Assembly (NCBI GenBank): GCA_015487235.1
Contig: WFQC01000080.1
Coordinates: 1 to 47,434, forward strand
From: Alteromonadaceae bacterium
GTDB lineage: Bacteria; Pseudomonadota; Gammaproteobacteria; Enterobacterales; Alteromonadaceae
Direction: 5' to 3'
DNA: 47,434 bases
Shown here: positions 28,728 through 30,830 of the stretch, in pieces
Position numbering within the stretch: the first letter of the stretch is position 1
How the letters are laid out: the number at the start of each line of letters is the position of its first letter
Position numbers and translations under genes: made by a program
Notes under the pieces: generated by a model
What the model saw: only the letters and a program-made list of their open reading frames with translations
The model's database searches: none
Told to the model about the DNA's origin: nothing

Positions 28728-28756
28728 TTGGTATTCAGCATAATTCGCGCTATAAT
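28728..28756 (+). promoter_or_regulatory. sigma70 promoter of plsC
   Basis: TTGGTA (28728-28733), 17 bases, perfect TATAAT (28751-28756). The predicted transcript starts near 28763, so the longest open frame, whose TTG overlaps the -10 box, cannot be the true start of plsC. Confidence 0.7.
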
Positions 28757-28785
28757 TGCGCGTTTATTTTTTCAGGGGTGGTCTT

Positions 28786-29508
28786 TTGTTAGCAGTTGTT
28801 CGACTTATTTTATTGGCGTTAGGTCTTGTCGTTTTATCAGTATTAGTGTGTTTATACTGTATTGTTCGGCCGTTTAAGCGTAATAACGTCTATTACGCAT
28901 CACAATTATTAGGTAAGTTTTCAAAAATATTAGGGTTAACGGTTGAGATCAGAATTCCTGATTCAGTTAAAGGTAAAGGCCCTTTCGTATTCATCTGTAA
29001 CCACCAAAACAGTTACGATATTTTTACTATTAGTGGTGCAGTACAACCAGGAACGGTTAGTATTGGTAAAAAAAGTTTGAAATGGATCCCTTTTTTCGGG
29101 CAAATGTATTGGCTAACGGGCAATATTTTAATTGATCGTAAAAATAGCAGTAAGGCTATGAATACGATTAATCTTGCTGCAGATAAAATCAAAGAAAAGC
29201 AAATTTCAGTGTGGTTGTTTCCTGAAGGTACGCGTAGCAATGGTCGCGGGCTTTTGCCCTTTAAAACGGGCGCATTTCGTACCGCAATACAAGCTGGTGT
29301 GCCTATTGTGCCAGTATGTGCGAGTGACTTACATGACACGATTAAACTAAACCGCTGGAATAATGGTAAAATGATCATTGAATTTTTAGATCCTATCGAG
29401 TTAACAGAACGTAATCGTGAAAATATTCGTCAGTTGACTAATGAAGTACATGACTTGATGGAAGCTAAAATCAATCAGTTAAATGAAGAAATTAATAAAG
29501 GCAAATAA
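28786..29508 (+). CDS. plsC: 1-acyl-sn-glycerol-3-phosphate acyltransferase
   Basis: Inner-membrane enzyme that makes phosphatidic acid from lysophosphatidic acid. An N-terminal membrane helix (residues 4-26) is followed by the HX4D motif NHQNSYD, GKKSLKWIPFFGQMYWLTGN, the FPEGTRSNGRGLLPFKTG block and VPIVPVC. It aligns with E. coli PlsC from residue 1 if TTG 28786 is used. That start has AGGGG 8 bases upstream and lies downstream of the predicted transcription start. 240 residues. The stop overlaps the rraB ATG by one base. Confidence 0.95.
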   Translation: MLAVVRLILLALGLVVLSVLVCLYCIVRPFKRNNVYYASQLLGKFSKILGLTVEIRIPDSVKGKGPFVFICNHQNSYDIFTISGAVQPGTVSIGKKSLKWIPFFGQMYWLTGNILIDRKNSSKAMNTINLAADKIKEKQISVWLFPEGTRSNGRGLLPFKTGAFRTAIQAGVPIVPVCASDLHDTIKLNRWNNGKMIIEFLDPIELTERNRENIRQLTNEVHDLMEAKINQLNEEINKGK

Positions 29509-29855
29509 TGGATAACGAATTACAACAATGGCGAGCACATACCGATGAGTTGGTTGCGGCCTTGATTGAAGATGGTTCTAATGAGTCAGTGCTACACACA
29601 ATCGAGCATCATTTTGCCAGTGATAACTTTGAACATTTAGAACGTGCAGCGGTAAGTGCTTTTAAGTTAGGCTTTGAAGTTGAAGAACCTGAAGAAGCAG
29701 AGCTAGAAGATGGCAGTAAGGTTTTTGCTTTTGATATTATCACTGAACAACCACTTGACGCCGATATTATATTTGCTGAAACAGAAAAAATGTTTAATTT
29801 AGCCAAACAGTGTCATGTTGATTATGATGGCTGGGGTACTTATTTTGAAGAATAA
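29508..29855 (+). CDS. rraB: RNase E activity regulator RraB
   Basis: Small cytosolic protein that binds RNase E and modulates its activity in E. coli. It aligns well over the core: LIEDGSNESVLHTIEHH, LERAAVSAFKLGFEVEEPEE and VDYDGWGTYFEE. It stops at this point, so the acidic C-terminal tail of E. coli RraB (138 residues) is missing and the protein has 115 residues. One-base overlap with plsC (TAATG) indicates translational coupling. Confidence 0.93.
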   Translation: MDNELQQWRAHTDELVAALIEDGSNESVLHTIEHHFASDNFEHLERAAVSAFKLGFEVEEPEEAELEDGSKVFAFDIITEQPLDADIIFAETEKMFNLAKQCHVDYDGWGTYFEE

Positions 29856-29909
29856 GAGAAAAAACTAATTTTTTTGTTGTTTAATTAGTCATTTGTTAAA
29901 AAAATGTAT

Positions 29910-29915
29910 TATAAT
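29910..29915 (+). promoter_or_regulatory. -10 element upstream of the 53-residue gene
   Basis: A perfect TATAAT follows an AT-rich stretch, 154 bases before the small gene. No good -35 hexamer is visible. It would give a leader RNA of about 145 bases. Confidence 0.4.
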
Positions 29916-30068
29916 GCGCAAAATTTAACGCATCTTACTAGGAGATGTTGTTATTTGAGGTTAAATTTTATTCACTTTAACAGTATTAGGTGAAAGCAAA
30001 AATCAACAATTCCTAGTGATAATAATAAAAAACAGCTTAACACAGCACTAGACAAAGGAGAAAATATA

Positions 30069-30230
30069 ATGGAATGGTTAGGAGAACTGATCACAGCGTA
30101 TCCTTTACTGCTATTAATTCCTCTTGTTATTGTTGTAGCCATTTTTGCCGTTGCTACGCGCCGCTCTCATCTAAAACATTTAGAGCAGATGGAAAAAATA
30201 CAAAATAACTTTGATCCTAATTTAAAATAA
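30069..30230 (+). CDS. 53-residue single-pass membrane protein
   Basis: ATG 30069 with AAGGAG exactly 8 bases upstream opens a 53-codon frame ending at TAA 30228-30230. The product starts MEWLGELITAYP, has one strong hydrophobic helix (residues 12-29, LLLLIPLVIVVAIFAVA), then TRRSHLK and a short charged amphipathic tail (HLEQMEKIQNN). The family is unknown; the topology, with a helix then a positive cytoplasmic tail, resembles PspB-like or other small regulatory membrane proteins, but similarity is not shown. Its 3' end overlaps the convergent LysE-family gene by 9 bases. Confidence 0.75.
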   Translation: MEWLGELITAYPLLLLIPLVIVVAIFAVATRRSHLKHLEQMEKIQNNFDPNLK

Positions 30231-30830
30231 AACCCTTGCGGTTACCCCTAATAAGGCAACGCCTGTTGCCTTTTCTACCAAGTTAATATTATCACGTAAT
30301 TTATCAATTAATGTAGAGTGAGATAATACTAGTGCAATGAGTGTGTACCAAAGCGCATCAATACCTCCTACGGTCAGTACCATAATCACTTTATGATCAA
30401 CGGTGTCGGTAGGCGTAATAAACTGGCTAAATAATGCCAAGAAAAAAATCGCTAATTTAGGGTTTAAGAAAGCAATTAGAAAACCTTCAACAGCACTTTG
30501 TTTTATGGAAGTTTTTTCTGCTTTTTGCTCTATTTTGCCCAGTGATGATTTTGCCGTAAAAGCTTTAAAGGCTAACCAAAGTAAAAACAAGGCTCCAGCG
30601 TATTTGATTATGTTAAATAACCATGGAGTTTCTTTGATTAAAATAGCCATACCTAATACGGTAAGTACGGCATATAATGCAACCCCTAAGCCATGAGCAA
30701 TACCCGTTGCCACACCATAAGCTCTACCATTGCTAATAGTATGCTTTAAAACAATAGCTAAACTTGGCCCTGGTGTTATAGCGCCAAGTAAGCAGATGGT
30801 GGCTAATGAAAACCATGCACTTAGTTCCAT
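30222..30830 (-). CDS. LysE/RhtB family exporter
   Basis: Inner-membrane exporter of amino acids or similar small molecules. The N terminus carries the family signature (CLLGAITPGPSLAIVLKH); there are about six hydrophobic segments in 202 residues. The substrate cannot be predicted. It lies 19 bases after the RND permease gene on the same strand, so it is probably the third gene of the efflux operon under the TetR regulator. LysE-type genes inside RND operons are not usual. Confidence 0.92.
   Translation of the reverse strand: MELSAWFSLATICLLGAITPGPSLAIVLKHTISNGRAYGVATGIAHGLGVALYAVLTVLGMAILIKETPWLFNIIKYAGALFLLWLAFKAFTAKSSLGKIEQKAEKTSIKQSAVEGFLIAFLNPKLAIFFLALFSQFITPTDTVDHKVIMVLTVGGIDALWYTLIALVLSHSTLIDKLRDNINLVEKATGVALLGVTARVLF

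Follow-up and report, generated by a model that had tools for sequence, protein, structure and literature searches.

A conserved gene for a predicted small membrane protein lies behind plsC-rraB in the Colwellia group of marine bacteria

A reading frame of 53 codons on the plus strand of the window (the whole 47,434-nucleotide stretch of Alteromonadaceae DNA analysed here) is almost certainly a real coding gene, and its product is very probably a single-pass membrane protein. The gene, which we call the smORF, is vertically inherited and present in most members of the Colwellia group. It represents a new family among small single-pass bacterial membrane proteins, one that no curated family claims. 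The smORF is likely to be co-transcribed with the preceding gene, rraB; taken jointly, gene, membrane protein and co-transcription still make a likely combination. The product has the look of an unremarkable small membrane protein, though an uncatalogued one.

Results

The first-pass annotation had placed the smORF behind plsC-rraB and had it overlap the end of a convergent exporter gene by nine bases. Both upstream genes were identified by their domains, with the smORF third in order, and the overlap was found as described. The features of the region are:

28786–29508, plus strand: plsC-type 1-acylglycerol-3-phosphate acyltransferase gene (PF01553, Acyltransferase, E = 2.6e-36 on the 28756–29508 frame)
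29508–29855, plus strand: rraB, regulator of RNase E (PF06877, E = 4.8e-29)
29856–30068, plus strand: rraB-smORF gap of 213 bp, without a terminator-like hairpin (family median gap 40 bp)
29886–29915, plus strand: TAGTCA-18-TATAAT, a weak resemblance to a sigma-70 promoter, no better than chance
30055–30060, plus strand: AAGGAG ribosome-binding site, with an 8-base spacer to the smORF ATG
30069–30230, plus strand: smORF, ATG to TAA, gene for a predicted 53-aa single-pass membrane protein, called from family matches and dN/dS
30222–30830, minus strand: convergent LysE-type exporter gene (PF01810, E = 4.6e-35), overlapping the smORF by 9 bp

The start of plsC was set at TTG 28786, matching the start seen in relatives, and plsC and rraB share one base of overlap. 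Just 5′ of plsC, at 28746–28772, the window carries CGCGCTATAATTGCGCG and then a T run, a site that combines the end of a promoter-like match with a terminator-like hairpin; a similar GCGCTATAATTGCGCG lies upstream of plsC at locus L002.

The smORF is translated as MEWLGELITAYPLLLLIPLVIVVAIFAVATRRSHLKHLEQMEKIQNNFDPNLK. Its AAGGAG, eight bases before the ATG, is present as first annotated, and most of the 30 homologues printed have a purine-rich Shine-Dalgarno-like motif 5′ of the ATG. When 29856–30230 was resampled as a first-order Markov sequence, an ATG-initiated frame of at least 53 codons with a Shine-Dalgarno-like motif and a transmembrane-like segment arose in 6 of 20000 resamplings. A search with the single protein matched four of the four genomes searched in its genus, the other three at 38–53% identity. 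Sixty smORF coding sequences, 43 of them distinct, gave 903 pairs, of which 405 were usable (0.05 < dS < 2); the median dN/dS of these is 0.15, a ratio that is rough because dS is near saturation in many pairs but clear in its direction. Counted over the full 903 pairs, codon positions 1, 2 and 3 differ 12743, 6463 and 24026 times, a third-position excess. These comparisons indicate that the frame is under purifying selection.

The first-pass annotation had made its reading depend on conservation of the frame in relatives, and the frame is indeed conserved, with matches in 62 of 196 genomes of the family. Its length of merely 53 codons and its fast evolution in the window genome might suggest a spurious reading frame. 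However, conservation in 62 genomes refutes that reading, and together with purifying selection and the rarity of such a frame among the resamplings it leaves only a negligible chance that the smORF is spurious. The further claim that standard length cut-offs miss the gene is doubtful: its 162 nt exceed the minimum gene length of Prodigal, 90 nt, and only cut-offs of 100 aa would drop it.

The window protein contains one hydrophobic segment, residues 12–30, with a mean Kyte-Doolittle hydropathy of 2.82, followed by a basic and amphipathic tail, as had been read from the sequence at the outset. AlphaFold2 gave a short helix at residues 3–7 and a helix at residues 10–47 (mean pLDDT 81.6, pTM 0.46), in a monomer model that is silent on partners. 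All 43 distinct copies (49–58 aa) possess a 19-residue segment with a mean hydropathy of at least 2.07, and they have 3–6 K/R in residues 30–46. Their net charge is −3 to 0 on the N-terminal side and 0 to +5 on the C-terminal side; by the positive-inside rule, the N-terminus is predicted to lie outside and the C-terminal tail on the cytosolic side. The hydrophobic moment of the tail helix is moderate (0.38–0.45 in the four copies computed), and the conserved consensus of the tail is KAHHKHQERIEKIKxGFDPD. Positions M1, W3, L13, I17, P18, F26, H34 and H37 are invariant in a 19-row alignment. Across 30 loci the overall mean identity is 0.68, but the window copy averages 0.45 against the other 29; the RraB and PlsC encoded beside it are ordinary (window copy/overall 0.71/0.74 for RraB and 0.67/0.67 for PlsC). 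Constraint on the smORF may therefore be relaxed in this genome.

To define the family we used a profile of 19 rows (A1), the window protein being one of them. At E ≤ 0.001 it matched the 62 genomes mentioned above, which include 56 of the 184 better genomes and span 18 of 52 genera. The window protein itself matched A1 over its full length (positions 1–52 of 53, E 9.3e-25), and single-sequence searches, which are independent of the profile, also matched relatives. The 30 best loci of the single-protein search come from Colwellia, Thalassotalea, Cognaticolwellia and Pseudocolwellia, from MAGs labelled Alteromonadaceae, Colwelliaceae or Gammaproteobacteria alone, and from one record titled Endozoicomonas sp. 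At the level of the class, 2 of 369 genomes matched at E ≤ 1e-4, both from the window's own family. Order-level searches matched 27 of 295 genomes at E ≤ 0.01, and 18 of 295 with a wider profile at E ≤ 0.001; beyond the family, these comprise a 74–78-aa protein type of genus g57 at other loci, and one f14 genome with a 52-aa ORF bearing a similar tail and a site inside a 495-codon frame. The remaining weak order-level matches beyond the family were not counted as relatives.

Gene order on the 5′ side is strongly conserved. Of the 62 matching genomes, 57 carry the smORF behind rraB on the same strand, at a gap of 17–229 bp (median 40 bp), and the window smORF, directly behind rraB at 213 bp, shares this position; in most relatives it starts less than 60 bp from the rraB stop. 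The order plsC, rraB, smORF was found at 30 of 30 loci. The 3′ neighbour, as judged by reading translations, varies among LysE-type, DjlA-like, LacI-like, RND-type, CcmE-like and CydB-like genes, and the nine-base overlap seen in the window is local and no family trait. Since the 3′ neighbour changes and the 5′ order is constant, the 5′ linkage appears to have been kept by selection or by history.

Terminator-like sites were found in the rraB-smORF gap at 0 of 30 loci and within 100 bp after the smORF stop at 4 of 30. Given short gaps without such a site in most relatives, read-through from plsC-rraB is a simpler account than a private promoter. The promoter and leader of about 145 bases first proposed for the smORF did not hold up: TAGTCA-18-TATAAT does not stand above shuffles (10 promoter-like matches in the region, against 7.5 ± 3.1), and by eye it has no obvious counterpart in the gaps of three same-genus relatives. 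By the same inspection, the window's gap looks unrelated to theirs, whereas the ORF is conserved.

A cut set by hand at an rraB E value of about 2e-42 or better delimited a Colwellia-like set of 66 genomes. Of these, 57 have the linked smORF, one (G014) has it elsewhere, and eight bear rraB with no smORF match. Those eight keep plsC-rraB. Neither in their stretches nor in the G014 plsC-rraB locus, nine stretches in all, did tblastn reveal a convincing smORF remnant. Six genomes with a more distant rraB (G031, G185, G024, G179, G144 and G106) have plsC-rraB with other genes downstream.

The gene preceding the smORF in G014 is a second one with an RraB domain (PF06877, E = 4.7e-22). Colwellia-like genomes have two to four RraB-domain matches (G042 has one), and the second such gene of the window genome is at C87 (G000:C87:2678-2977, L147). 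This second paralogue, which has an FPNDDTG-type start (L147, L148–L158), is usually preceded by a small gene, lipoprotein-like or TM. It is often followed on the other strand by a UPF0126-like gene: among 11 loci examined apart from G014, that gene is directly 3′ in six, lies behind intervening genes in three (L149, L151, L156) and is missing from the stretch read in two (L147 and L150, both of the window's genus). In G014, the UPF0126-like gene is instead found behind plsC-rraB, with one gene between; most simply read, a rearrangement with breakpoints at the two paralogues has swapped what lies downstream of them. G014 was therefore withdrawn as independent support for a link to RraB. Its loci L099 and L157 are consistent with an inversion between opposite-strand paralogue loci, at about 0.69 Mb and 2.83 Mb.

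Other homologues lie outside the plsC-rraB locus. Three genomes of genus g45 (G047, G084 and G136; L101, L102 and L110) encode a 52–62-aa homologue with the same tail motif behind a DUF413 (maoP-type) gene, a second setting in which the family recurs; the DUF413 domain was identified in the protein from G084. A fourth g45 genome, G175, also matches the family. G101 has a second smORF copy with no RraB neighbour. The homologues behind DUF413 and the eight Colwellia-like genomes without a smORF argue that RraB is not an obligatory partner.

Discussion

We propose that the smORF forms the 3′ end of a plsC-rraB-smORF transcript and yields, once translated, a small inner-membrane protein whose basic helical tail would face the cytosol as a docking surface. 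The protein would then be a membrane adaptor or modulator, its partner bound through the tail; we put an adaptor acting in this way at slightly less than an even chance. That the partner is specifically RraB is unlikely: only gene order makes RraB the first candidate, the distance correlation between smORF and RraB is lower than that between RraB and PlsC, and the partner may be another protein because homologues occur outside the rraB locus. If the smORF protein does bind RraB, it would carry it to the membrane, the tethering site of RNase E. PMC3997798 describes this tethering as due to an amphipathic helix, and describes RraB as binding both the C-terminal half of RNase E and RhlB itself. 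The RraB encoded next door is acidic, with 29 D/E against 6 K/R. In its full form, the idea is of a clade-specific membrane anchor that recruits RraB, an inhibitor of RNase E, and is co-expressed with a phospholipid-synthesis enzyme; we consider this improbable. Were it true, inhibition of the membrane-tethered RNA degradosome would be controlled in space, and, given binding to RraB, the smORF would help to show at what place and time inhibition of RNase E occurs. The full physiological role of RraB when it is not over-expressed is described in PMC3997798 as still to be determined.

About as likely as the adaptor role is a function of the smORF's own, for example as a stress-linked modulator of a transporter or of a respiratory complex, with the plsC-rraB transcript merely used for expression and the adjacency inherited; this is a serious candidate, if one we hold at somewhat below even. 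It would account for the g45 loci behind DUF413, the second copy in G101 and the eight genomes that keep rraB without a smORF, and the confinement of the adjacency to one clade means that it may reflect a single origin. On the other hand, adjacency to rraB has been kept in 57 of 62 genomes despite repeated rearrangement on the 3′ side. If the smORF is such a passenger, it is one more among many small membrane proteins.

Partnership with PlsC is a further reading, in which the smORF product would be a small membrane subunit that regulates phospholipid synthesis; this would suit two membrane proteins encoded in one gene cluster at 30 of 30 loci. Yet the direct neighbour is rraB, those genomes examined that lack the smORF retain plsC, and the distance correlation is lowest with PlsC (smORF-PlsC 0.49, smORF-RraB 0.60, RraB-PlsC 0.82), so we think this role quite unlikely. 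More remote still is a type I toxin or a phage-derived hydrophobic peptide, to which the small, hydrophobic product might point, as might isolated weak PHROGs and PADLOC matches (best E 0.011 and 0.0037, in one or two of 19 members) to models that are uncharacterised, holin-like or 1TM effector. Such a peptide is hardly credible given one copy in nearly all genomes, a fixed locus and a conserved tail; moreover, an Rfam search over the whole window returned nothing at gathering scores, and a plasmid search with one smORF relative gave no match.

Whatever its partner, the smORF adds a conserved family without a Pfam or NCBIfam model, adjoining rraB. Family searches with the single protein and with 19 homologues drawn from the 30 loci found nothing significant in Pfam, NCBIfam, PHROGs, PADLOC or PDB sequences. 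A literature search combining rraB, plsC and small membrane protein found nothing treating rraB in that combination, and among the papers listed on Colwellia small proteins none was evidently on this gene.

Among known families, DUF6249 (PF19762) is the closest lead; it shares an N-terminal hydrophobic segment with an IP motif and then a basic stretch, and two g45 homologues gave sub-threshold matches to it (E 0.03–0.04) across the hydrophobic segment and tail. The smORF could thus be a remote DUF6249-like member reduced to the N-terminal module, but this is very unlikely. DUF6249 has 104 profile positions and further hydrophobic segments, and the extracted proteins are 110–148 aa long; hhalign gave a probability of 9.7, with an alignment confined to 17 columns of the hydrophobic segment; and DUF6249 is absent among the matches of the 19 members at E ≤ 1 (curated cut-off 33 bits) and from the smORF's own genome. 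Membership was largely refuted, failing both the score cut-off and the profile comparison across segment and tail, and the literature on DUF6249 held nothing related to the smORF.

PspB (PF06667) and the 74–78-aa g57 proteins resemble the smORF product in having a single hydrophobic segment ahead of a charged helix. In the g57 proteins (from a genus that by impression we take to be Shewanella) the hydrophobic part matches the smORF profile, but these proteins differ in a longer coiled-coil-like tail, another C-terminal motif and another locus. This PspB-like type (L040–L050) reads MNPATLALLIPI...LERLVTDD, also given as MNPATLALLIPI...RVEVLERLVTDD, and several times faces a convergent DEAD-box-helicase-like gene; the one member scanned had no Pfam match over cut-off (PspB E 0.2). 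PspB was rejected for the smORF itself, as it is not among the matches of the 19 members at E ≤ 1 and the neighbours are plsC and rraB, not psp genes. YajC (PF02699/TIGR00739) likewise has one hydrophobic segment and then basic residues, but its best E values (0.082 in Pfam, 0.014 in NCBIfam) are sub-threshold, the window protein scores 12.5 bits against a Pfam cut-off of 28.2 bits, and the neighbours are again different; it too was rejected.

CydX, AcrZ and KdpF are, as a class, small single-pass regulators of membrane complexes, the kind of role to which the first-pass annotation pointed; for the smORF product such a role is hypothetical. Their models are absent from the Pfam and NCBIfam matches of the smORF, which is not encoded with a large membrane complex, but the smORF shares with them its size (under about 60 aa, with smORF copies of 49–58 aa) and a single hydrophobic helix.
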